In this document: positions 44,132 through 56,138 of the stretch, piece after piece
Numbering within the stretch: position 1 is the stretch's first letter
Layout: every line of letters begins with the position of its first letter
Origin: Candidatus Chlorohelix allophototropha
Lineage (GTDB): Bacteria; Chloroflexota; Chloroflexia; Chloroheliales; Chloroheliaceae
DNA length: 64,000 bases
NCBI RefSeq assembly: GCF_030389965.1
Contig: NZ_CP128400.1
Coordinates: forward strand, 930,001-994,000
Direction of reading: 5' to 3'
Made by a program: the position numbers and the translations under genes
Notes under the pieces: model-generated
Databases searched by the model: none
The model's input: only the letters and a program-made list of their open reading frames with translations
What the model was told of the DNA's origin: nothing

Positions 44132-44521
44132 TTAATTATTGAAACCAAAAGGCATCTGCTTTTCTTCCAAAAGTCGGATTTTCTCTCTAAAAGAATTGAG
44201 CGATTGATAATCGCCACTGGCAATAAATTTTTGTGCCACTTTCTCAATGATTTGCGCGTTCCAGCGTTTTAGACCTTCCCATGCCAACGCAGGGTTATCC
44301 CCAAACTCCGCATAAATGTTAACTACCAGAAAAGTAAGATATTCTTTCCAGTTGAAGCTCACCCCAAAGGCAATTTCAGTATCAAGTTCGGAACAATGCT
44401 GCCGAGCAAGCCATTTATCGCCATGGTATTGTTGGTTGAACGCCGCATATATTTTTTCGAATTTTGTACGATTAAGTACACGTATTCCTTCTGCATAAGG
44501 AACGGGTATTGACTCTTTCAC
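44132..44521 (-). CDS. Hypothetical protein downstream of the gas vesicle cluster
   Basis: This 129-residue soluble protein is rich in aromatic residues (FNQQYHGDKWLARQH, FNWKEYLTFLVVNIYAEFGDNPALAWEGLKRW). I do not recognise the family. It starts at GTG after GGGG, 53 bases downstream of the CDC48-type gene. No terminator lies between them, so it may be the last gene of the cluster. No catalytic or membrane motif is visible. Confidence 0.55.
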   Translation of the reverse strand: MKESIPVPYAEGIRVLNRTKFEKIYAAFNQQYHGDKWLARQHCSELDTEIAFGVSFNWKEYLTFLVVNIYAEFGDNPALAWEGLKRWNAQIIEKVAQKFIASGDYQSLNSFREKIRLLEEKQMPFGFNN

Positions 44522-44573: not shown

Positions 44574-46796
44574 CTATTCGTTATGAGAAGAATGATTTTT
44601 TGAGTCCAGGATTTCTTTTAACGCAATTTGGAAATCCTCTGCTGTTAATAACAATTTAATATGGGTGTTGTCAACTTCAGTGCCGTTTTCCCTAGCCGCT
44701 TTTTCGGCAATTACACGCAAATCTACAGCACGCCGTACTGCGTTCAGCGAAGCGCGGTTGCATAGAGCTTCAATTTCTGCACCAACCAACCCTTCGGTAA
44801 GCAATACCAGATTCTCTACTAGATGGGAATCGGACAGCGGTTTGCGGGCGGTGTGTACCTGCAATATTTTGCGGCGGGAAGGCGCATCTGGCAACCCAAT
44901 CGTTAGCTTGACATCGAAACGCCCCGGTCGTAGCAAAGCAGGGTCGAGCATTTCAGGACGATTGGTTGCCGCAATCATAATCAAACCGGCAGCCCGTTCA
45001 ATACCATCTATTTCGGTGAGTAACTGCGCTACTACGCGGTCGGCAACGCTATCATTAACCCGCGCCCCTCGTACCGGTGCAACTGCATCGATCTCGTCAA
45101 AAAAGATTATACAAGGCGCAGCGTGTCTGGCTTTCTTGAAAATTTCGCGAACGGCTTTTTCGCTTTCCCCGACCCATTTGCTTAATAGCTCTGGACCTTT
45201 TATCGAGATGAAATTGACTTCACTCTCGGTTGCCAACGCCTGCGCCAGTAATGTTTTACCACAACCGGGAGGCCCGGATAGCAATATACCGTGTGGCGGT
45301 TTGGTATCGGCTTCTGCAAAATATTCCGGGTACATCAGCGGCCACTCCACCGCTTCCCGTAGCGCCTGCTTTATGTCTTCCAACCCACCGACTCTATCCC
45401 ATGTCACATCTGGAACTTCAGTGTAAACCTCACGAATAGCAGATGGTTCGATTTCCTTTAAGGCACTGAGAAAATCTTCCATCGACACGCTCAGATTGAC
45501 GAACTGTTCGTAGGGTATAGCGGTTTCCATGTCGGGAATGACTCGCCGTACCGCACTCAACCCCGCTTCTCGGCAAAGAGCAGCAAGGTCTGCCCCTACA
45601 AACCCATGCGTGAGTGATGCCAAACGCCCAATGTTAACTTCAGAGGTAAGCGGCATACTGCGAGTATATATTTCAAGAATTTCTTGGCGACCGGGTCTGT
45701 CCGGTACTCCAATGACAATTTCACGGTCAAAGCGACCGGGACGGCGCAAAGCTGGGTCGAGGTTGTTGGGAAGGTTGGTAGCGCCGATTACCATCACATG
45801 CCCGCGCCCCTGTAGCCCGTCCATTAGGGATAGCAACTGTCCGACTACGCGCTTTTCTACCTCACCCTGCACATTTTCCCGGCGCGGCGCTAACGAATCA
45901 ATTTCATCAAGGAAGATGATACTGGGAGCATGCGAGGTTGCTTCCTGAAAGACCTTACGCAGGTTGGCTTCGCTTTCCCCATAAAATTTCTGAATCAGTT
46001 CCGGTCCGCTGACGCTTATAAAGTGCGCTGATGTTTCGTTGGCAACCGCGCGCGCAATCAAGGTTTTGCCGCTACCGGGAGGCCCATATAGCAAAACCCC
46101 TCTGGGTGGTTCAATGCCCAAACGGTCGAATACTTCAGGATATTTGAGGGGAAGCTCAATCATTTCCCGGATATGCGATAGCTGTTTTGACAAGCCGCCA
46201 ATATCTTCGTAGGTTACGCCTGAACCAGAACGCCGCAACGGGCGAGTGCGTGTTTCGTCGCGAGTTGTGCTAAATTTTAGAGCAGTGGCAGGTCCAATCA
46301 CCAGTGCGCCGCTTTTTGGAACCGTTTCTTGCACTACAAATTCCTGAAAGCGACTACCTAGAAAATTAACCCGCAGCAAATCGCCGGACTTTACTACAAT
46401 CCCTTCCAGCGTATGCTTCATATAAAGCTGCCCTTGCACATTCTGATTGTTTGCATCGGGCGAGGATGAATCAGGCAGGGGAGTTAATATCAAGGTTTTA
46501 GCAGGTGTAGCGCTGGTTTTGCGAATAGTAACCCTACCATCCAGCGTTGCGCCGCAGTTAGCTCTAACCAGCCCATCAATTAAGATCAGATTCTTGCCTC
46601 GATCTGCCGCAAAAGCGGGCAAAACCTTAGCAGCAGTGGTACGAGTTCCTCGTACTTCAATAACATCACCGATAGCTAGGTCAAGTTTTTTCATCTCATC
46701 GGGGTCTACTCTGGCAATAGTACGACCCGTATCTCTTGAGGCTGCTTCGGCTACGCGCAAACTTAGTGTGTCAACTTGGTCGGAAGTCTCGTTCAT
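44574..46796 (-). CDS. CDC48/p97-type AAA+ ATPase with two AAA domains
   Basis: The N domain (about 10-110) is double-psi-barrel-like (SLRVAEAASRDTGRTIARVD, LAIGDVIEVRG). Two AAA modules follow, with Walker A GPPGSGKT and GPPGCGKT, Walker B IIFLDEID and IIFFDEID, and arginine finger regions ALRRPGRFD and LLRPGRFD. All catalytic residues seem intact in both. CDC48 homologues unfold or extract proteins from complexes. It lies 75 bases after the GvpH-like gene on the same strand, which suggests a role with gas vesicle proteins (inference). ATG 46796 with GGTGG upstream is preferred over GTG 46805. Confidence 0.93.
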   Translation of the reverse strand: MNETSDQVDTLSLRVAEAASRDTGRTIARVDPDEMKKLDLAIGDVIEVRGTRTTAAKVLPAFAADRGKNLILIDGLVRANCGATLDGRVTIRKTSATPAKTLILTPLPDSSSPDANNQNVQGQLYMKHTLEGIVVKSGDLLRVNFLGSRFQEFVVQETVPKSGALVIGPATALKFSTTRDETRTRPLRRSGSGVTYEDIGGLSKQLSHIREMIELPLKYPEVFDRLGIEPPRGVLLYGPPGSGKTLIARAVANETSAHFISVSGPELIQKFYGESEANLRKVFQEATSHAPSIIFLDEIDSLAPRRENVQGEVEKRVVGQLLSLMDGLQGRGHVMVIGATNLPNNLDPALRRPGRFDREIVIGVPDRPGRQEILEIYTRSMPLTSEVNIGRLASLTHGFVGADLAALCREAGLSAVRRVIPDMETAIPYEQFVNLSVSMEDFLSALKEIEPSAIREVYTEVPDVTWDRVGGLEDIKQALREAVEWPLMYPEYFAEADTKPPHGILLSGPPGCGKTLLAQALATESEVNFISIKGPELLSKWVGESEKAVREIFKKARHAAPCIIFFDEIDAVAPVRGARVNDSVADRVVAQLLTEIDGIERAAGLIMIAATNRPEMLDPALLRPGRFDVKLTIGLPDAPSRRKILQVHTARKPLSDSHLVENLVLLTEGLVGAEIEALCNRASLNAVRRAVDLRVIAEKAARENGTEVDNTHIKLLLTAEDFQIALKEILDSKNHSSHNE

Positions 46797-46870
46797 TTTA
46801 GCCACCCGAAATTTAGCAAAACCCGGTTAAAACCGTATTTTGATATTACAACAGTTATAGGCTATAGGGT

Positions 46871-47605
46871 TCAGACTCGCTTTAATCTGAGCTCAAGCAA
46901 TCCGTTTTGATATTTCTGACTAACAGGTTCAGCTTTTACCATAGCCGGAAGCATAACCTCTTTTTCATAGAGGCAATCCGTGTTTTCACCTTGCACTATC
47001 AAAATATCATCATGAATTTCAAAGTAAACTTTTTCTTCCGCCACACCCGGTAATTCCACAATTACTACAATCTGACCCTCTGCTGTCTCGTCATGTATTT
47101 CTATATACGGCTCTCGGACGGTAGCAACGGGAGTAAGGTTGGCATTATTTGGATTTGGGCGCTGCCCTGCTTTATCCTTAGCGGGAATTGTATATCCGGG
47201 CGTAGCAGCAGGACGAGCAGGCGGACGGCTGGCAAAACCAGGCGGGCGACTGGCGAAAGGTCTAGCTGCGCCGGGGTTATCTTCCAACGTGGAATTATTG
47301 AAGCCCCACTTTACCACAAAGCCCTTGCTATTGAATTCGGATTTTAATTCGCCACCACTTTCATTTCCACTGGCTTCGGCTTCTTTGGCTTTTCTGGATA
47401 GTTCCTCTGCTTTTTCAACAACTTCACTAAGACGTTCGGCAATTTCACCAAGCCCCTTGAAAAAGCCACCCATATTTATATTGCCACCTGCTGAGCTACC
47501 GGAGGAACGACGTGAATTGCGAGAGACGCGCGGTGATTCGGTTTCAGAATCATTAGAATCTGGATCAAAAGAACTAAATTTATCGGTATTTTTATTTTCT
47601 GACAT
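46871..47605 (-). CDS. gvpH: GvpH-like gas vesicle protein with C-terminal Hsp20 fold
   Basis: An N-terminal Ser-rich disordered part is followed by FFKGLGEIAERLSEVVEKAEELSR, a helix seen in GvpH proteins. A Pro/Arg-rich linker with repeated RPPGFASRPPARP comes next. The C-terminal about 85 residues form an alpha-crystallin/Hsp20-like sandwich (YIEIHDETAEGQIVVIVELPGV, YEKEVMLPAMV). GvpH in haloarchaea is a chaperone-like partner of gas vesicle proteins. Position after gvpJ in the operon supports the call. Confidence 0.82.
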   Translation of the reverse strand: MSENKNTDKFSSFDPDSNDSETESPRVSRNSRRSSGSSAGGNINMGGFFKGLGEIAERLSEVVEKAEELSRKAKEAEASGNESGGELKSEFNSKGFVVKWGFNNSTLEDNPGAARPFASRPPGFASRPPARPAATPGYTIPAKDKAGQRPNPNNANLTPVATVREPYIEIHDETAEGQIVVIVELPGVAEEKVYFEIHDDILIVQGENTDCLYEKEVMLPAMVKAEPVSQKYQNGLLELRLKRV

Positions 47606-47640
47606 AAGCTACTTCCTTATCTCTTCTATGCTCACACCAA

Positions 47641-47907
47641 TTATTCCGCCGGCACCACTTCTTCTTTTTCGGACAATTGTTTAGGTGTAATTGCATTTGC
47701 ACTAAGGAAAGGATCTTGTTGCCACCAATTAATGCCCATTTCCATTGCTTTATCTACAGAGGCTATCACCAAGCGAATTTTTATGCTAACCAATTCGACT
47801 TGAGCCAAAGCAATTGTGATATCACCCGCTATTACGATTCCTTTATCAAGTACTCTTTCGAGAATATCTGCCAAGTTAGTTGTTTGAATGCCACTTTGAA
47901 CTGCCAT
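47641..47907 (-). CDS. gvpJ: Gas vesicle protein GvpJ (GvpA family)
   Basis: The 88-residue protein has the GvpA-type core (LADILERVLDKGIVIAGDITIALAQVELVSIKIRLVIASVDKAMEMG). This is followed by the INWWQQDPFLS motif typical of GvpJ, which distinguishes it from the main shell protein GvpA. GvpJ is an essential minor component, thought to act in nucleation of the conical tips. A short acidic tail follows. GGAG precedes the start, and the gene lies 15 bases after gvpK. Confidence 0.9.
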   Translation of the reverse strand: MAVQSGIQTTNLADILERVLDKGIVIAGDITIALAQVELVSIKIRLVIASVDKAMEMGINWWQQDPFLSANAITPKQLSEKEEVVPAE

Positions 47908-47922
47908 AGGAGTATCTCCGAT

Positions 47923-48264
47923 CTAAAGTAAGTTGCCCAGCGGGCCCAGGTTCAGGTTCAATTCTTCATCCTGTAAACCGAATATTTCTTTCAATTCTTT
48001 CATGCGTGCTTCGAGCCGGATAAAGGTGTCACCCATTCGCTCGATTTCAGCATCGGTCAAGGAACCGCCCTCTACTCGTCTGACTGCTTGCCGTTCCAAT
48101 AACTGGCGCAATAGTTCAATTAAAGTCAGTACCAGTTTGGCTAGCCCTTGTTCCACATCATTTGGTGACGCATCTATCCGCGCGATTTTATCGTTTTTTA
48201 GATGGTCGTTGACGGTTTGTTGCAATTCTTCTGCCAACGATTCGATCAACAATTCATTATTCAT
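47923..48264 (-). CDS. gvpK: Gas vesicle protein GvpK
   Basis: The 113-residue helical protein matches GvpK: RIDASPNDVEQGLAKLVLTLIELLRQLLERQAVRRVEGGSLTDAEIERMG and an ending LNLNLGPLGNLL. GvpK is required for gas vesicle formation in most organisms, although its exact place in assembly is unclear. Length is normal. GAGG precedes the ATG. Confidence 0.95.
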   Translation of the reverse strand: MNNELLIESLAEELQQTVNDHLKNDKIARIDASPNDVEQGLAKLVLTLIELLRQLLERQAVRRVEGGSLTDAEIERMGDTFIRLEARMKELKEIFGLQDEELNLNLGPLGNLL

Positions 48265-48275
48265 TAATATTATCC

Positions 48276-48917
48276 TCAGACGAAGTCATAAGGCGGGAAA
48301 GGCCCGGTGACAACGACGGGTATTTCACAACTTCCAATTATATCCTTAAAATCAGCAAGTCTCTCTTGCGGTAAAAGGAAAGATGCTTCTGCGAAAGTAG
48401 CCCCGGGTGTAGGGGTATAATATTGGTAATCCACCGCCAGCTTCGAAAGCTTTTTCACCGCTGCATCGATCAACACTAATTGCTGATCTTCATGCGCCTG
48501 CCGTTGAGATAGCCATTTCATATAATCCAGCCCACGATTTTGCCCGGAAACGAAGGCATGTTCCGCCTCCTTCTTGTTTTGCATGGCAAACCTGATGCTC
48601 ATCTGCAACTTGTTACCGATTTTTACAAGACTGCTTTTGTAATCGGCGACGTTTTCAAGTAACACCTTGCCTATTGCTTCCGGTCCTTCAAAAACCGAAC
48701 CGGCTCGTACCGGCAGGATTGCATTATTGCCGTTATCCCACCATACGTTAATAGCCATCTGATAACGGCGCAATCGCCCAATATCGGTCAGGTCGAAATC
48801 AGGAGTAATAACTTCTACCAAAGCCATCAGGTCACCTGCTGCAACACCCCCGAAACCACTTGGAAGCGCCGGGTTTTGGCTTGTTTTCATTCTGATAGCC
48901 CTGATCTCAAGCTTCAT
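48276..48917 (-). CDS. GvpF/GvpL-family gas vesicle protein (third copy)
   Basis: A single GvpF/L fold of 213 residues is visible: LVEVITPDFDL opens a strand, followed by YQMAINVWWDNGNNAILPVRAGSVFEGPEAIGKVLLEN. It ends in the usual VTGPFPPYDFV motif. GvpF contacts GvpA and helps assembly; GvpL is related, and the two cannot be told apart by eye. This copy is the most divergent and shortest of three in the cluster. Its ATG overlaps the preceding gene's stop (ATGA), giving translational coupling. Confidence 0.85.
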   Translation of the reverse strand: MKLEIRAIRMKTSQNPALPSGFGGVAAGDLMALVEVITPDFDLTDIGRLRRYQMAINVWWDNGNNAILPVRAGSVFEGPEAIGKVLLENVADYKSSLVKIGNKLQMSIRFAMQNKKEAEHAFVSGQNRGLDYMKWLSQRQAHEDQQLVLIDAAVKKLSKLAVDYQYYTPTPGATFAEASFLLPQERLADFKDIIGSCEIPVVVTGPFPPYDFV

Positions 48918-49195
48918 ACAATTCGACCGTTTTTCATACGTACTGCCCCAACGCTGACCGCCTTTTCGGCAGTAGAAACCATTAACCGCAAACCGATGTA
49001 AAGTAAATCTACACCTGCAATAGATAAGGTTAGGTCACCACTTAATATTACGCCTTTGGTCAAGAGCTTATCGAGCAGTTCCAGTAAGGTTACTTCTTCT
49101 TTGGGATCAGGTGGTTGATTTTCGTCCACCAAAGGCAGCCCCAGAACCTCCTCCGCCAACCAAAAATCAAATGGGGATGATATTTGAGGATCCAT
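48914..49195 (-). CDS. GvpA-family minor protein (GvpS/GvpM type)
   Basis: Residues about 37-80 form a GvpA-like core (TLLELLDKLLTKGVILSGDLTLSIAGVDLLYIGLRLMVSTAEKA). The 36-residue acidic N-terminal extension (FDFWLAEEVLGLPLVDENQPP) and lack of the GvpJ tryptophan motif point to GvpS or GvpM. Start and stop overlap both neighbours (TAATG upstream and ATGA downstream), so it is tightly coupled to two GvpF/L genes. Confidence 0.85.
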   Translation of the reverse strand: MDPQISSPFDFWLAEEVLGLPLVDENQPPDPKEEVTLLELLDKLLTKGVILSGDLTLSIAGVDLLYIGLRLMVSTAEKAVSVGAVRMKNGRIV

Positions 49196-50025
49196 TACAT
49201 AGCCTCTTCGCCCAGATTGATAAAGGAGTAGGGGGGCAAAGGACCAATCGCCTCCACCAGACCGCCTCCCAGCGCTTCCCGATCGAGTCGTTCTGCCATC
49301 AGCTTTAATTCTTCGAGACGATCACGACCAAGCAACAAGGATAAATTAATCAAAGGCAGGAAACCTTTTACACCTACAGCAGGTAAAGAAAGAGTTTTCA
49401 TCTGTTCTGGGCTTAAACTAAAAACATTCTTCAAAGTGCCTGCTAGGCGTTGCCCCAGTTGTGGAGCCAATTTCTTCTTTGCTTCTGCCATAGCCAATTC
49501 ATATTTCTTGGCAGAGAAAAAGCTTTTTCCGCCACTCTGGTTAGTTTGGGCGTAGAGAGTTTGCAAATTCTTGTCATTACGAAGGGCAAAAGTATCCAGC
49601 CATTCTTCTTTGGCCCAGATTTTTAAACCAAATTCTGCTTTACCTTCTAATCGTTGGAATTCTGACTGGAAATCCTTGAAGCGAGCCGTCAATAAATCTT
49701 GTACAGCTTGTGGTGAAGAAAAAACGGTGAACAGGCGGAAGGGCAAGAAATTTTTGGACTCTTGGAAAATCTTATCGCATGTGGCAAAGTGGATTGTCGC
49801 AATTTCGCCAACCCAATCCATATCCTCCATACGCTCGGAAACCACATCCTGTCCAAATTCATCCAAGCTAACTTCACAACCAACTGCGCTTATACCATCT
49901 TGCTCAAAAACTATTTCTAGAGGGGCATCCCCAAACCCAACCAATTTGGGGCATGCGGTACCGAGCATTAGTCCGAACACATAACGGGCTGTATCAGTTG
50001 TTGTGAATGAACTGGCCGGTGTCAT
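49195..50025 (-). CDS. GvpF/GvpL-family gas vesicle protein (second copy)
   Basis: This is a 276-residue GvpF/L protein: RYVFGLMLGTACPKLVGFGD opens it, FLPFRLFTVFSSPQAVQDLL follows, and GPLPPYSFI ends it. I start at ATG 50025, preceded by AAGAGG, because the longer frame reaching 50121 adds a basic stretch and no family sequence. The start overlaps the end of gvpG by about 30 bases. It is related in fold to the copies at 48276 and 50303 but not closely similar in sequence. Confidence 0.87.
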   Translation of the reverse strand: MTPASSFTTTDTARYVFGLMLGTACPKLVGFGDAPLEIVFEQDGISAVGCEVSLDEFGQDVVSERMEDMDWVGEIATIHFATCDKIFQESKNFLPFRLFTVFSSPQAVQDLLTARFKDFQSEFQRLEGKAEFGLKIWAKEEWLDTFALRNDKNLQTLYAQTNQSGGKSFFSAKKYELAMAEAKKKLAPQLGQRLAGTLKNVFSLSPEQMKTLSLPAVGVKGFLPLINLSLLLGRDRLEELKLMAERLDREALGGGLVEAIGPLPPYSFINLGEEAM

Positions 50026-50290
50026 ATTCTTCGTCCTCTTCCTCTTCTTCGTCGGTTTCACCGAACCAAAGAGAGTTAATAAGGTCCAGTTGTTCCATAA
50101 TCTGTTGCTCTTGAGCCTCATAGCCGGCTTGATCTACTTCACCCAAATCATAGCGCATCTGGAGATCAAGAAGTTTTTGCTGCCAGACAGTCTCATCGTA
50201 GAGTTCGCGATCTACCGACTTTCTTATCTGCTCAAGTACAAACATTACTCCTTTGTAGGGGCTACTTGCAATTCCGGTTATGAGTCCCAT
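49994..50290 (-). CDS. gvpG: Gas vesicle protein GvpG
   Basis: The 98-residue protein matches GvpG: a short hydrophobic N-terminus (GLITGIASSPYKGVMFVLEQI) followed by a helix with DETVWQQKLLDLQMRYDLGEVDQAGYEAQEQQIMEQL. An unusually acidic tail (DEEEEEDEEYD) ends it. GvpG is an assembly factor that works with GvpF/L and GvpA. It sits between two GvpF/L genes, as in other clusters. Confidence 0.92.
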   Translation of the reverse strand: MGLITGIASSPYKGVMFVLEQIRKSVDRELYDETVWQQKLLDLQMRYDLGEVDQAGYEAQEQQIMEQLDLINSLWFGETDEEEEEDEEYDTGQFIHNN

Positions 50291-50302
50291 CTTTTGATAC
50301 TC

Positions 50303-51088
50303 CTATAGTCCAAGATTAAAATGTACAAAATTATACGGCGGAAGTGGGCCTGCGTACTTGAGAGTCAACCTTCCTCCCAGTTCGTCATCCAGAGCATTTA
50401 CAGCCTCATCAAAGGCAGTTTCTTTTTCGTTATCTACTAGGAAAGAGGCATTCAACACCAGCATATCAAGCGTAATTGCATTGAGTTTTACCTCTCTAGC
50501 CAACGGTTCCAAACGCGCTAGAATCAGTTGAGCGTCTCTTTCTCGCAAATCATTCAGCGCACGTTCAACCGTTTGTCCTAGCTCAATTTTATCCTGTTGC
50601 GATTCGCCAAGCCGCGCTCTAATACTTTGAATTTCTGGCAAAGCAGCAAGTTCGGCGAAAATACGCTCACGTTGCCAGAGCGCTTTTATACCAACCTCAA
50701 CATGCTGCTTAAAACTTTCAAGAAGCTCAGCCAGTTCTGTTTCGCGATTAGTTAGCAACGTCTCGACCAATTCCTTTTCAGAATTGGCAACTGTCCCAAA
50801 TTTAACCGGCAGAACGGGACCCTTAACCGTATTCATTACATGCTCAACCACTTTTTCGTGAGAAAGCAAGTTGGTACGATTTATACTATAGCGGGTGATG
50901 GGAGAATCACTTGTTACGGCTGCTACACGCCCGACTATAATCGAATACACTCTGGTGACACCTTGCGAGTTAGGAACAGGTACACCGGCTATTTCTAACT
51001 CAGGAATAGCGTTATCGGACAAGGTAAAGCAATAGAGATAGCGACCTTTATAGCCCGATTTTGTTTTTTTTACCCCTTCGTCAGACAC
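50303..51088 (-). CDS. GvpF/GvpL-family gas vesicle protein (first copy)
   Basis: The 261-residue protein is the most canonical GvpF/L here: GRYLYCFTLSD, VGRVAAVTSDSPITRYSINRTNLLSHEKVVEHVM, GPVLPVKFGTVANSE and the final GPLPPYNFV. The start is GTG 51088 with AAGGAG seven bases upstream. It may be the true GvpF, being closest to the front of the operon. It lies 12 bases before gvpG. Confidence 0.92.
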   Translation of the reverse strand: MSDEGVKKTKSGYKGRYLYCFTLSDNAIPELEIAGVPVPNSQGVTRVYSIIVGRVAAVTSDSPITRYSINRTNLLSHEKVVEHVMNTVKGPVLPVKFGTVANSEKELVETLLTNRETELAELLESFKQHVEVGIKALWQRERIFAELAALPEIQSIRARLGESQQDKIELGQTVERALNDLRERDAQLILARLEPLAREVKLNAITLDMLVLNASFLVDNEKETAFDEAVNALDDELGGRLTLKYAGPLPPYNFVHFNLGL

Positions 51089-51099
51089 TTTAGTACTCC

Positions 51100-51444
51100 T
51101 TAATATTCAAGGATCACTGGTTCCGGATTTTCCGGTTCTTCATCATCACCATGCATGATAGAATCTATAGTTGGTAGCTTTTTCACCGGAGCAACTCTGG
51201 GAACAGGTGGTCGATTCAATAAATCGATCTGGCTACGATAATAATCAATCTCAGTATCTATCTTGGAAATCCGCCTACGTTTTTGTTCCAGCCGAGCTAG
51301 TAATTCCGCTTCATCCACACAAAGCCGTTCTCTCTCGGTAGCCAAGCGGTTCAACATCAGGAACATAGACCCAGAAGTGCGGGGTATTGCGCTAAAAGTA
51401 GGACGGTTCTGGGTATCGCGGAGGGTTTTTTGCTTTGGCTTCAT
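51100..51444 (-). CDS. Unknown coiled-coil protein within the gas vesicle operon
   Basis: The 114-residue protein has a central predicted coiled coil (LNRLATERERLCVDEAELLARLEQKRRRISKIDTEIDYYRSQI). Basic/polar and Pro-rich ends surround it. I recognise no Gvp family. It is flanked by gvpN (24 bases) and GvpF/L (11 bases), so it is almost certainly part of the assembly operon. It could be a lineage-specific assembly factor; shape alone gives no more. Confidence 0.7.
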   Translation of the reverse strand: MKPKQKTLRDTQNRPTFSAIPRTSGSMFLMLNRLATERERLCVDEAELLARLEQKRRRISKIDTEIDYYRSQIDLLNRPPVPRVAPVKKLPTIDSIMHGDDEEPENPEPVILEY

Positions 51445-51468: not shown

Positions 51469-52410
51469 CTAACAAAATTCTTCAGCCAGTTGCGCAATTA
51501 TCTGGCGATGTTTTAGTCTTTCGAGTGGATGTAAACCAGAGCTACGTAGCAAACCGCCACCCAATACATCAAAGCAAACTTGCAAGAAGTGCGTATCATG
51601 GGCACTTACTTCAAATTTCTGTAATTCTACCACTTTTGCAATCATAATGGCAGCCCGTACGGTGGGTTTAAGTTCTCCAGTACTTTGTTCACGAAAAGCT
51701 CGAACCAGACTAACGATTCGTTCGGCGCGTTCAACATCCATACCGGCGCGATTTGAAGTAATAAGCGTTTCGGTGGGTTTGTCAAAATAATCTAAATATA
51801 TAGTTATCATGCGGTCGCGTAGCGCGTCCTGAGTTTTATGAACTCCGGCATAGTCTTCTGGATTGCTGGTAAAAATAGCAGCGAAATTGGGATGTACTTT
51901 TAAGTAGCTATTGCCAGCACGTGCTACCGGTAGCACCATTAATTTCTCTTCCAGAACCGAAAGCAAAACATTGTTAGCTTCTGGGCGGGAACGGGTAAAT
52001 TCATCATATACCAAAGTATAACCTTCGCGGCAAGCAATCGTCAGACGGCTATCAGCCCAGCGTTGGGTCATATCTTCTTCGGTCTTAAGCACATTATGTA
52101 CGAAATTATCCACTACTTTGCGGCGTCTGTAACCAAATTGTCCACCCACTAAGTCGGAGGTGCCAAACTGATCATCGCCGGTTAAAAGCATTAAAGGCTG
52201 CCCTAACAGGTTAGCTAGATGCATTGCCAGAGTAGTTTTACCACTGCCACTTGGCCCACAGAAATGAACAGCAAATCCGGCTTTGATATAAGCCATGCCT
52301 CGTTCCATTAATTCTTGGATAAAGGGAGTATTTGCAAATCCGCTGCGGGGTCTTAAATTTAGTACGGGCGGAGGCGGAGTATTAATTGATACAGTCGCAT
52401 TAGTAGCCAT
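51469..52410 (-). CDS. gvpN: Gas vesicle AAA+ ATPase GvpN
   Basis: GvpN is a MoxR-type AAA+ ATPase needed for growth of gas vesicles. Walker A lies in HFCGPSGSGKTTLAMHLA, Walker B in LVYDEFTRSRPE and sensor 1 in FAAIFTSNPEDYAG, with an Arg finger region ALRDRM. Length is normal. It follows the GvpC-like gene and precedes the unknown 51100 gene. Confidence 0.95.
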   Translation of the reverse strand: MATNATVSINTPPPPVLNLRPRSGFANTPFIQELMERGMAYIKAGFAVHFCGPSGSGKTTLAMHLANLLGQPLMLLTGDDQFGTSDLVGGQFGYRRRKVVDNFVHNVLKTEEDMTQRWADSRLTIACREGYTLVYDEFTRSRPEANNVLLSVLEEKLMVLPVARAGNSYLKVHPNFAAIFTSNPEDYAGVHKTQDALRDRMITIYLDYFDKPTETLITSNRAGMDVERAERIVSLVRAFREQSTGELKPTVRAAIMIAKVVELQKFEVSAHDTHFLQVCFDVLGGGLLRSSGLHPLERLKHRQIIAQLAEEFC

Positions 52411-52528: not shown

Positions 52529-54052
52529 TCATATTGCCAGGTAAACCTTGTCACTCTTTCGCACTTTACCACTCTCCATCAGTTTTTTGAGATGGGATCT
52601 GAGTTGTTGGCGGCTTAGCCCTAGAGGTAGGAAATGATGTTCCAGTTCCTCATTAGTTAGCCCATCTGGGTTTAATGCCAGAAGAGAGAAAATATCAGCG
52701 GTTCCAATAAGCGTACTAGTGTGGTTAGTTTCAGCTATACTCATCACTGCTTCGGGTTCAGGTTTAACAACCGGCGTGACGGATTCTATTGCTTCACTTT
52801 TAGGCTCTACCACAGGAGTAACCTCTGCCACCATAGTGACGGGCGGTTCAGGCTCGGCAGGTTTGGCTGGCACTTCTACCGGAGTACTCTCTACTTTTAA
52901 CTCAGGTTGCGGTTTAGGTTCAGGCTTTTTGGTTGCGGGAGCAGGCGTAGTTTCGGGTGTAGTACCGAACCGCTCATTGCGGAACCCTGCCAGTAACGCG
53001 GCAACTTCAGTAAGCCTTTGCAATACATTCTGGCGCAGCTTTGCAGCTTGCTCCATAGAGGCGGCAACGCGGGAGGCGTTCGCTACTCTTGTAAATTCTT
53101 CGACGCTATTGTGGCGGATGAGAGAGTCTGTTCTGAGTTGCTGGTGCAAATCATTTGACATCTGGAAGCGACTACCCTGGAAGTTGCGAAGCATATCCAA
53201 AATATTCGATAGTAATTCCATTCTGTCATTTTGAAGCTCTTCAGCCTGTTTTTCTGCACCACTAGCTCTGGAAGCAGAGGTGTCATTCAGAAAATCATCA
53301 ACACTCTGTTTCCGATTCTGTGAATCTGCTTTTAGCTGCTGTTCCTGTTCGCTTGCTTTTTCTGCCCGCGTAGTCTGGTAGCCGTTTAGCATATCCAGCA
53401 TCTGATTGAGCAACGCAAGCCGGTCGGATTGCAACTTTACAGCCTGTTCAGCGGAAAATGTTGTTCTGGAAGAACCAGTGTCCTTCAAAAACTCATCTAC
53501 GCTTTGCCGGCGGTTGTTGGCATTTGTCTGCAAGGTCTGGTGCAATTCTTCTGACATTTCGGCCCTATCTGACATGAAACTCTGGAGCAGATTACTGATC
53601 TCCGTGAGCATCGATACCCGATCGGACTTTAATTTCTCATCCTGATCCCTGGCTTGACTCTGGCGATTCGCCGAGAAGTGACCCAGTAATTCTGCAAGGT
53701 CGGCAGCGCGATCAGCAAAATCTGCGGCTAGGTTTTCATGCAATTCTTGGTGTAGAACAGCCCGTTGCCCACGCAAATTTTGTATATCTTCGGCTACCTC
53801 TTCGGCTCTACTGGCTCTATTCCGGTTTAGATTCTCGCGCATCTCACTAGCACGTTCGGCACGTTCTTTAGCAAAATTAGCAAGCATGTCAGCAACACTT
53901 TGTGTTCGGGCTTTACGTTGTTCAGCAAGATTATCACGAAGCTTGATAGAAAATTCAACGCGTTCCCTGACAAGTTCGCTCATTAGACCGCTAACTTCGC
54001 TTTGTAGATCGAGGACGTATTTAGGAGAGTTGGGATCTTTTTCAGTTATCAT
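52529..54052 (-). CDS. gvpC: GvpC-like repeat protein with C-terminal winged-helix-like domain
   Basis: Residues 21-350 consist of ten contiguous repeats, each exactly 33 residues, with a partial eleventh to about 363. Typical units are AELLGHFSANRQSQARD and LDMLNGYQTTRAEKASE. A 33-residue period is the hallmark of GvpC, which clamps the outside of the gas vesicle and stiffens it. Later repeats alternate as 66-residue pairs. A Pro/Glu-rich linker (about 364-450) leads to a winged-helix-like end (DIFSLLALNPDGLTNEELEHHF, LRSHLKKLMESGKVRKSDKVYL). That end is not part of known GvpC proteins as far as I know. It lies between gvpA and gvpN. Confidence 0.88.
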   Translation of the reverse strand: MITEKDPNSPKYVLDLQSEVSGLMSELVRERVEFSIKLRDNLAEQRKARTQSVADMLANFAKERAERASEMRENLNRNRASRAEEVAEDIQNLRGQRAVLHQELHENLAADFADRAADLAELLGHFSANRQSQARDQDEKLKSDRVSMLTEISNLLQSFMSDRAEMSEELHQTLQTNANNRRQSVDEFLKDTGSSRTTFSAEQAVKLQSDRLALLNQMLDMLNGYQTTRAEKASEQEQQLKADSQNRKQSVDDFLNDTSASRASGAEKQAEELQNDRMELLSNILDMLRNFQGSRFQMSNDLHQQLRTDSLIRHNSVEEFTRVANASRVAASMEQAAKLRQNVLQRLTEVAALLAGFRNERFGTTPETTPAPATKKPEPKPQPELKVESTPVEVPAKPAEPEPPVTMVAEVTPVVEPKSEAIESVTPVVKPEPEAVMSIAETNHTSTLIGTADIFSLLALNPDGLTNEELEHHFLPLGLSRQQLRSHLKKLMESGKVRKSDKVYLAI

Positions 54053-54182: not shown

Positions 54183-54401
54183 TTAGGCGGCGGGGGCAGC
54201 AACGGTTTGGGTTAAACCGATGGCCTCAGCATACTTCAAATAAGTCTCAACCGAAGCAATAACTACACGGGCTTCAATTGCTAAAAGTTCAATACCTACC
54301 AAAGATACACGAGCCCAAGCATCAATTACGATACCTTTGTCCAAAATGCGGTCAATAACTTCGACGAGGCTGCTGGATGAATTGGTTTTCTCGACTGCCA
54401 T
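54183..54401 (-). CDS. gvpA: Major gas vesicle shell protein GvpA
   Basis: The 72-residue protein matches GvpA almost throughout: [52 protein letters not shown]. GvpA forms the ribbed wall of gas vesicles. Length and the conserved core are normal. AAAGGAG eight bases before ATG gives a strong ribosome site, as expected for an abundant protein. It is the first structural gene after the two-component genes. Confidence 0.97.
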
Positions 54402-54631: not shown

Positions 54632-55351
54632 TTAATTCACCAGCCCTGAGCGGATTGCTTTGACCGCTGCATTGGTGCGATCTTGCGCCCCCAATTTGGT
54701 AATAATATTCTGCATGTGCTTTTTAACTGTCTCTTCTGAAATCATCAAACTTGTTCCAATCTGACGATTAGTCCAGCCCTCTGTAACCAGCTTTAACACA
54801 TCCAACTCTCGCTCGCTGAGATGATAATTTGCTAGACCCTCACCGCCGCGTGCCAGCGCTTGCCCACGTACATTTGCCATAACCGTAAGCGCATGGCGGA
54901 GCATTTCGCTTTTCACCAGCACATGACCAGCATTAGCATTCCGAATCGTTTCACAGAGCAATTCCTTCGAAGCGTCTTTTAATACATACCCTACTGCCCC
55001 TGCCCTGACCGATTCGATGATATTCGTGTCGGCACTATACATAGTAAGCATTACTACCCTAGTACAGGGTAATTGGGCTTTAAGGCGGATTGTAGCCTCA
55101 ATACCGTTCATACCAGGCATCATTATATCCATCAATATTACATTGGGTTTATATTTTAATGCCTGTGCAATAGCCTCAGCTCCATCTCGTGCCTCACCTA
55201 CTACACTAACCCCAGGATCTTCGCTCAAAATTGATCGAAGTCCTTCCAATACTATTTGATGGTCATCTACAATTAGCACAGTGATTGGGGTAGATGGGGA
55301 GTAGGATGTAATTACAGATTCTTGAAAATAGTCATCTGTTTGACTTATCAT
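54632..55351 (-). CDS. NarL/FixJ-family response regulator
   Basis: The receiver domain (about 24-140) has acidic pair DD29-30, phospho-acceptor Asp75 in LMDIMMPG and a conserved Thr and Lys (MLTMYS, YVLKDAS). The LuxR-type HTH output (about 172-235) reads LSERELDVLKLVTEGWTNRQIGTSLMISEETVKKHMQNIITKLGAQDR. It is preceded by its kinase gene (13-base gap) and followed by gvpA, 230 bases on. This arrangement makes it a strong candidate regulator of the gas vesicle genes. Confidence 0.94.
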   Translation of the reverse strand: MISQTDDYFQESVITSYSPSTPITVLIVDDHQIVLEGLRSILSEDPGVSVVGEARDGAEAIAQALKYKPNVILMDIMMPGMNGIEATIRLKAQLPCTRVVMLTMYSADTNIIESVRAGAVGYVLKDASKELLCETIRNANAGHVLVKSEMLRHALTVMANVRGQALARGGEGLANYHLSERELDVLKLVTEGWTNRQIGTSLMISEETVKKHMQNIITKLGAQDRTNAAVKAIRSGLVN

Positions 55352-55364
55352 AGCGATGCCCTCA

Positions 55365-56138
55365 TCATTCTGATTTATCTACTGGAAGGTTTAAGCGTAT
55401 TGTTGTGCCTTGGTTCTTCATACTGCTCAATTCAAGTGTTGCTCCAATTTCCTGAGCACGTTCTTGCATTGCTATCAGTCCTAAACCACCTTTGCCATTC
55501 CTCCTGATTTTCTTTGGGTCAATACCGACACCCCAATCTCGCAATACAATTTCGAAACTACCATCCTCAAGGAACATCATATGCAATTCAACCCGTTTGG
55601 CAGCAGCATGCTTGCGAATGTTATTTAAACCTTCTTTTAGAATGCTATATATTTTTTCTTGATGATCACGGGGAATATCAGGTTCTTCGGCTTCAAATTC
55701 GTATGCCCAACCTTGCTCTTCCTTGCAACGTTGTAGCTCAAGTTGAAGAGCATCTAAGAGACTCAGGTTTCCTAAATCATCTAGGCGTAACCCTTCAATT
55801 ACGGCTCTGGCTTCGCCTAATGCCTGTTGCACTAGTATACGAGCCTTTAATATCAAATTCGTATATTCATCACGGCGTTCTGGAGGGAGATTCTCGAGGA
55901 TTTGTAAGTAGTGGAGTACGGGTATTAGGGTTTGGGCAACCCCATCATGAATATCATAGCATACCCGGCGAATCTCACGCTCGTGAGACCTAATAAGTTG
56001 TTGAATAACTTTGACTGCATCATATCCGTTACTGACAAAATTATTCAACTCAAATTCTACTGCTTCTGATGCATCAAGCTGGTTACCAGAATCAGCGTCA
56101 TTGTCACGATCCTTGTTTCTATCGTTACGGATTACCAT
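55365..56138 (-). CDS. NarL/DegS-type soluble sensor histidine kinase
   Basis: A HisKA_3 dimerisation domain has the phospho-acceptor His64 in VCYDIHDGVAQTL. The HATPase domain follows, with N box EGLNNIRKHAAAKRV, G1 DWGVGID and G2 GKGGLGLIAMQERA. No membrane helix or recognised sensor domain is visible in the 60-residue, highly charged N-terminus. Input may be an internal signal or a partner protein. It is encoded directly before its response regulator. Confidence 0.92.
   Translation of the reverse strand: MVIRNDRNKDRDNDADSGNQLDASEAVEFELNNFVSNGYDAVKVIQQLIRSHEREIRRVCYDIHDGVAQTLIPVLHYLQILENLPPERRDEYTNLILKARILVQQALGEARAVIEGLRLDDLGNLSLLDALQLELQRCKEEQGWAYEFEAEEPDIPRDHQEKIYSILKEGLNNIRKHAAAKRVELHMMFLEDGSFEIVLRDWGVGIDPKKIRRNGKGGLGLIAMQERAQEIGATLELSSMKNQGTTIRLNLPVDKSE

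Follow-up and report, generated by a model that had tools for sequence, protein, structure and literature searches.

A winged-helix tail on a GvpC-like gas vesicle protein of Candidatus Chlorohelix allophototropha and its recurrence in Chloroflexota

Why would a protein that coats gas vesicles end in a winged helix? The question is raised by a 507-residue GvpC-like protein encoded in a gas vesicle (gvp) gene cluster of Candidatus Chlorohelix allophototropha. The cluster lies within a 64,000-nucleotide stretch (positions 930,001 to 994,000 of contig NZ_CP128400.1, assembly GCF_030389965.1; hereafter the window); the contig, 2,453,413 bases long, is the second of five in a genome of 6.09 Mb. An earlier note, made from the sequence alone, had read a small winged helix into residues 451-507, after a Pro/Glu-rich linker, and suggested that this module might tether vesicles to DNA or another structure, or couple vesicle level to transcription. 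GvpC-type coat proteins are known; a winged-helix tail on one of them was not described in the papers searched, and it is one case of a recurrent architecture.

Architecture and fold of the protein

Residues 1-365 are periodic, with z values of 3.0 at 33, 4.9 at 66, 2.8 at 99 and 4.3 at 132 residues, and eleven rows of 33 residues align in perfect phase. Both GvpC repeat models score the 507-residue protein just under their curated cut-offs (NCBIfam gvpC_cyan_rpt, TIGR02641, 18.0 bits against 18.8; Pfam Gas_vesicle_C, PF01304, 14.6 bits against 21), and we therefore call it GvpC-like. Gene order agrees with this assignment, as the gene lies between gvpA and gvpN, and the order is the same in relatives. 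The protein thus resembles cyanobacterial and haloarchaeal GvpC in its 33-residue repeats, its gene position and its expected exterior location, but its repeats fall under the cut-offs of both models. The cyanobacterial GvpC that we compared (Nostoc, L179) has no winged-helix tail, and the C-terminal domain of haloarchaeal GvpC is unrelated to the winged helix in sequence.

Some 85 residues rich in Pro (21%) and Glu (16%) come after the repeats as a presumably flexible linker; in the AlphaFold2 model, the portion of it kept before the modelled domain has a predicted local distance difference test score (pLDDT) mostly below 50. A search of genome contigs for related loci gave a single match, in a Pseudomonas genome (L003); it covered the linker region only and was set aside as low-complexity similarity.

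When the tail alone (residues 451-507) was searched against Pfam, it matched EutK_C (E 5e-4), BLACT_WH and HTH_24, all below cut-offs. The tails of two relatives, L041 and L042, both from a genome of the same family (G004), were searched as well. The L041 tail scores above the Pfam gathering score of MarR_2 (34.2 against 27), HTH_20, HTH_IclR, HTH_24 and HTH_5; the L042 tail also hits winged-helix families, with scores under the respective cut-offs. A curated winged-helix cut-off is thus passed by the L041 tail and not by the window tail.

The AlphaFold2 model of the window tail, a monomer built on a three-sequence alignment, has helices at residues 451-460 (H1), 467-474 (H2) and 481-494 (H3) and strands at 497-500 and 503-506. 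This is the H1-H2-H3-strand-strand topology of a winged helix, predicted with a pLDDT of about 84-91 over the domain. A Foldseek search with the model gave no match at E 0.001; its leading matches, with probabilities near 1, are winged helices. In a VIA-align comparison with the PDB, the top rows are likewise winged helices, including archaeal Rpa2 (Z 9.6), RPA32C (9.2) and FeoC (9.0). That the tail is a canonical winged helix is therefore well supported, as a predicted fold and not one solved experimentally.

The domain proposed in the earlier note is thus borne out by the profile search, the structural model and the relatives, in which the tail is also present. A literature search, with most subscription journals outside it, linked neither gas vesicles nor GvpC to a winged helix or a DNA-binding domain, in agreement with the note's impression that no such protein had been described.

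Conservation and selection on the tail

G004 encodes three GvpC-like proteins, of which L041 and L042 are tailed and L040 has no tail. The window tail shares 59-61% amino acid identity with the L041 and L042 tails, compared with 21-33% over the repeats, and is the best conserved part of the 507-residue protein. A codon comparison of the window tail with the L041 tail shows differences at 37 of 53 third positions and at 37 of 106 first and second positions. Where the residue is identical (33 cases), the codon differs in 24. Together with the higher amino acid identity than in the repeats, these codon-position differences indicate that the tail is under purifying selection.

Two trivial origins were considered and rejected. 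An artefactual fusion of open reading frames (ORFs) is contradicted by the occurrence of an in-frame tail in separate genomes, of which two are complete or almost complete. Chance fusion of a decayed regulator does not agree with a tail that is better conserved than the rest of the protein and evolves under purifying selection.

Recurrence on vesicle surface proteins

A GvpA match was found in 57 of 400 Chloroflexota genomes, and we read 20-kb stretches (or up to the contig limit) around many of these GvpA clusters and around clusters in the class found through GvpK. The tail profile located the winged helix at the C terminus of GvpC-like proteins in G307, G230, G175, G395, G308, G446 and G408, the G308 copy (L154) being a short fragment. 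Including the window genome and G004, tailed GvpC-like proteins occur in nine genomes from eight families. In four other families, represented by G113, G090, G172 and G331, GvpA itself bears the tail as a fusion. The clusters of these four genomes have no recognisable GvpC-like gene and the genomes have no true GvpN, whereas every genome with a tailed GvpC has GvpN. G113 and G172 have no major GvpA other than the tailed one.

The hidden Markov model (HMM) of the tail gave E-values of 1e-5 or lower for most relatives and 0.004 for one GvpA tail (first three-sequence profile); in the search with the final profile, the best-scoring ORF not in the set had E 0.03. The similarity among the tails thus exceeds chance. 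An AlphaFold2 model of one tailed GvpA (A3) has a mean pLDDT of 59.5, and its tail is predicted as three helices at about 62-76 with no wing. On GvpA, the winged helix is a putative assignment by profile similarity only.

Outside the phylum, no GvpA match in a plasmid collection reached into the tail, with 80% coverage attained by 0 of 43 records. Among the gvp clusters of five plasmids that were scanned, the tail HMM matched only the GvpN of Nostoc sphaeroides (plasmid p4, L179 4766-6055). This protein has its own C-terminal winged-helix-like domain after a linker that is acidic and contains Pro (tail HMM E 2e-5; Pfam TrmB 1e-3, MarR 3e-3). The idea that winged-helix tails are common on Chloroflexota GvpN was rejected, as none was seen at the GvpN C termini examined. 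The occurrence of the tail on GvpA and, in similar form, on a GvpN points to a general docking module of the vesicle surface.

Other C-terminal extensions were seen in the same survey. In seven Chloroflexales genomes (G035, G037, G021, G041, G045, G026 and G027) the GvpC-like protein ends in a helix-hairpin-helix (HHH_5-like) domain (L066 14643; L072 17044-18507; L078 7683-9437; L143 8249-10039; L150 9435-11435; L055 1-1062; L142 6451-8448), an apparent non-homologous replacement at the position of the winged helix. In other Chloroflexales the GvpC-like proteins are short, with neither domain. Two GvpA-type proteins (L130 11858-12493 and L132 12473-13084) carry long Gln/Pro-rich C-terminal tails that are probably disordered.

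Resemblance to the microcompartment protein EutK

A profile of 14 tails was searched against all PDB sequences, and its best match was PDB entry 3i71 (E 8.3e-5), the EutK C-terminal domain, with an ArsR protein (6e-4) and MarR regulators behind it. Against the Pfam family EutK_C (PF16365), the window tail scores 20.4 bits and the highest-scoring tail, that of G090, 26.8; as these scores lie just below the gathering score of 27.5, the tails are not members of PF16365. EutK belongs to the shell of the ethanolamine microcompartment, and its C-terminal domain has been called mysterious and possibly nucleotide-binding (PMC5821096). Deletion of EutK in Salmonella, reported in 2025, left the Eut compartments polar and static; a partitioning role was proposed, as was nucleotide binding by the charged C-terminal domain (PMC12487888).

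EutK and the tailed vesicle proteins are alike in that a shell protein of a protein organelle bears a small winged helix at its extreme C terminus, and EutK_C is the best Pfam match of several tails. In contrast, the organelles and the carriers are unrelated, a BMC hexamer in EutK and a GvpC rod or GvpA here; the Pfam scan of the 507-residue protein found no BMC domain, its carrier being a GvpC-type repeat protein. Since the winged helix is a widespread fold and regulators score almost as well, we take the match as a resemblance and not as proof of common descent.

Possible functions of the tail

The reading that we favour, though tentatively, is that the tail is a cytoplasm-facing tether that positions gas vesicles, with nucleoid DNA as the likeliest ligand in the window protein. 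GvpC sits outside the gas vesicle ribs (PMC9994262) and the GvpA C terminus lies beneath GvpC (PMC10185304), so both carriers would expose the tail to the cytoplasm; by analogy with these structures, we place it on the outside of the vesicle. The GvpC-type repeats would bind along the ribs, and the winged helix would be displayed into the cytoplasm on its flexible linker of about 85 residues. Many copies per vesicle would make the tether multivalent, and it would position, spread or partition gas vesicles, as EutK is thought to do for ethanolamine microcompartments. The repeats, the linker, the fold (by model and profile), the conservation, the recurrence on vesicle surface proteins and the EutK match were computed here, while the ligand and the tether function of the window tail are what we infer.

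The charge of the tail bears on the ligand. The C-terminal 33 residues of the window protein, which make up H3 and wing, have a net charge of +6 and the rest of the tail -5, and the tail may bind nucleoid DNA weakly and without sequence specificity through this basic H3/wing face. GvpC-type tails range from -2 to +6 and MarR_2 domains of the same genome from -3 to +5, largely overlapping in a comparison that is rough, the control segments having been cut unevenly. DNA is thus a plausible ligand of the window tail. The tether to DNA or another structure that the earlier note envisaged receives partial support, in that it fits the EutK resemblance and the basic face. Also in favour of the tether, the tail is under purifying selection, and the domain that stands in its place in Chloroflexales is a helix-hairpin-helix, likewise a fold that often serves nucleic acids.

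Several observations weigh against the positioning tether. The GvpA-type tails have net charges of -4 to -10, below all MarR_2 controls, and their H3 and wing are negative to neutral; as the GvpA-borne tails are strongly acidic, DNA is not the ligand of all family members, and for the GvpA-type tails it is unlikely. The helix-hairpin-helix tails of Chloroflexales are neutral or slightly acidic, with net charges of 0 to -2. One of the three G004 homologues, L040, does without the tail. Winged helices also serve as protein docks, and RPA32C and the cullin WHB are among the structural matches. The C-terminal domain of haloarchaeal GvpC acts through protein-protein contact (PMC9372576), and the mechanism of EutK itself is still a proposal.

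Protein-protein docking for assembly or reinforcement we consider nearly as likely as the positioning tether. Here the tail would join GvpC rods to one another or recruit assembly factors, and on GvpA it would form an outer layer that replaces GvpC. The distribution of the tail agrees with this, as it is on GvpC where GvpN is present and on GvpA in clusters that lack both GvpN and a recognisable GvpC, with a similar domain on Nostoc GvpN. The acidity of the GvpA tails agrees as well, and in G113 and G172, which have no other major GvpA, the tailed protein would coat the whole shell. There is also a precedent in the long C terminus of Bacillus megaterium GvpA2, which gives a surface density that connects the ribs (PMC10185304). 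However, GvpN is ruled out as a common partner by the GvpA-tail clusters without it, and docking accounts neither for the basic face of the tail in the window protein nor for the EutK match.

Winged helices often dimerise, and many copies on flexible linkers would suit cross-bridging, which raises the possibility that tails of neighbouring vesicles pair and pack the vesicles into clusters. The C-terminal domains of Halobacterium GvpC do self-associate (PMC9372576), but our AlphaFold2 model covers the monomer only, and we regard such a linker as improbable. Least credible of all is transcriptional feedback, in which GvpC free of vesicles would regulate gvp genes through the winged helix. The tail shares its fold with MarR, ArsR and IclR regulators; it is not part of one, being attached through its long linker to repeats that coat vesicles. 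In favour of feedback, the recognition helix of the window protein and its closest relatives is regulator-like and the L041 tail reaches the gathering score of MarR_2. Against it, a dedicated histidine kinase-response regulator pair adjoins gvpA here and in several relatives, the tails on GvpA are acidic, and the same tail is elsewhere part of the major shell protein, an unlikely regulator when made in such excess. The coupling of vesicle level to transcription suggested in the earlier note is therefore not upheld.

Returning to the positioning tether, a broader proposal, which we regard as rather unlikely, is that winged-helix tails of one kind have been adopted independently by gas vesicles and bacterial microcompartments for this purpose. 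In gas vesicles, the tail would have moved among GvpC, GvpA and GvpN and been replaced by helix-hairpin-helix in Chloroflexales, and such tails would be a general, hitherto unrecognised way to place protein organelles. A conserved, separable surface tail that recurs in families across the phylum, and resembles the tail of a microcompartment shell protein with a positioning phenotype, offers a direct handle on how bacteria place and share out their gas vesicles. The tail is also a possible natural surface-display site on engineered vesicles for ultrasound imaging.

The gas vesicle gene cluster and other observations

The genes of the gvp cluster span about 44.1-56.1 kb of the window (Table 1). 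The three GvpA-type genes in it are the only PF00741 matches of the genome. On the minus strand, the order is histidine kinase, response regulator, gvpA, GvpC-like gene, gvpN, small coiled-coil ORF, gvpF, gvpG, gvpF, GvpA paralogue, gvpL, gvpK, second GvpA paralogue, Hsp20-like gene, CDC48-type ATPase and a 129-residue ORF.

Table 1. Features of the gvp cluster in window coordinates.
Feature	Position	Strand	Basis
GvpC-like protein, 507 residues: 33-residue repeats, linker and winged-helix tail	52529..54052	-	ORF translation, profiles, periodicity
Eleven 33-residue GvpC-type amphipathic repeats (residues 1-363)	52964..54052	-	Periodicity, TIGR02641 score
Pro/Glu-rich linker (residues 366-450)	52703..52957	-	Composition, low pLDDT
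C-terminal winged-helix domain (residues 451-507; 57 residues), predicted	52532..52702	-	Profiles, AlphaFold2 model, structural matches
Recognition-type helix H3 (residues 481-494), RQQLRSHLKKLMES	52571..52612	-	AlphaFold2 secondary structure
gvpA, major shell protein, no tail	54183..54401	-	Pfam Gas_vesicle 5e-16
gvpN, AAA ATPase, no tail	51469..52410	-	TIGR02640 7e-105
Response regulator, LuxR-type helix-turn-helix, adjoins gvpA	54632..55351	-	Sequence; orthologues in relatives
Histidine kinase, partner of the response regulator	55365..56138	-	Sequence
Remaining gvp cluster: CDC48-type ATPase, Hsp20-like, GvpA paralogues, gvpK, gvpF/L, gvpG, coiled-coil ORF	44574..51444	-	

The histidine kinase and response regulator are likely the regulator of the vesicle genes. 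An orthologue of the response regulator stands beside gvp genes in six other clusters of the winged-helix type and in G004, and an orthologous pair of histidine kinase and LuxR-type regulator adjoins gvp genes in L116, L124, L127, L140, L145 and L154.

The small coiled-coil ORF after gvpN (51100-51444) matches no Pfam or NCBIfam family and is kept in both G004 clusters. The 129-residue ORF downstream of the CDC48-type ATPase (44132-44521) has no family match either.

Outside any gvp cluster, contig 1 of the window genome (about 774.65-775.25 kb; L043 9652-10254) encodes a 201-residue protein that combines GvpC-like repeats with a C-terminal domain of another kind; the protein encoded beside it has a B12-binding-like domain. 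The C-terminal domain of this 201-residue protein is also found inside the G004 protein L042, just before the winged helix.
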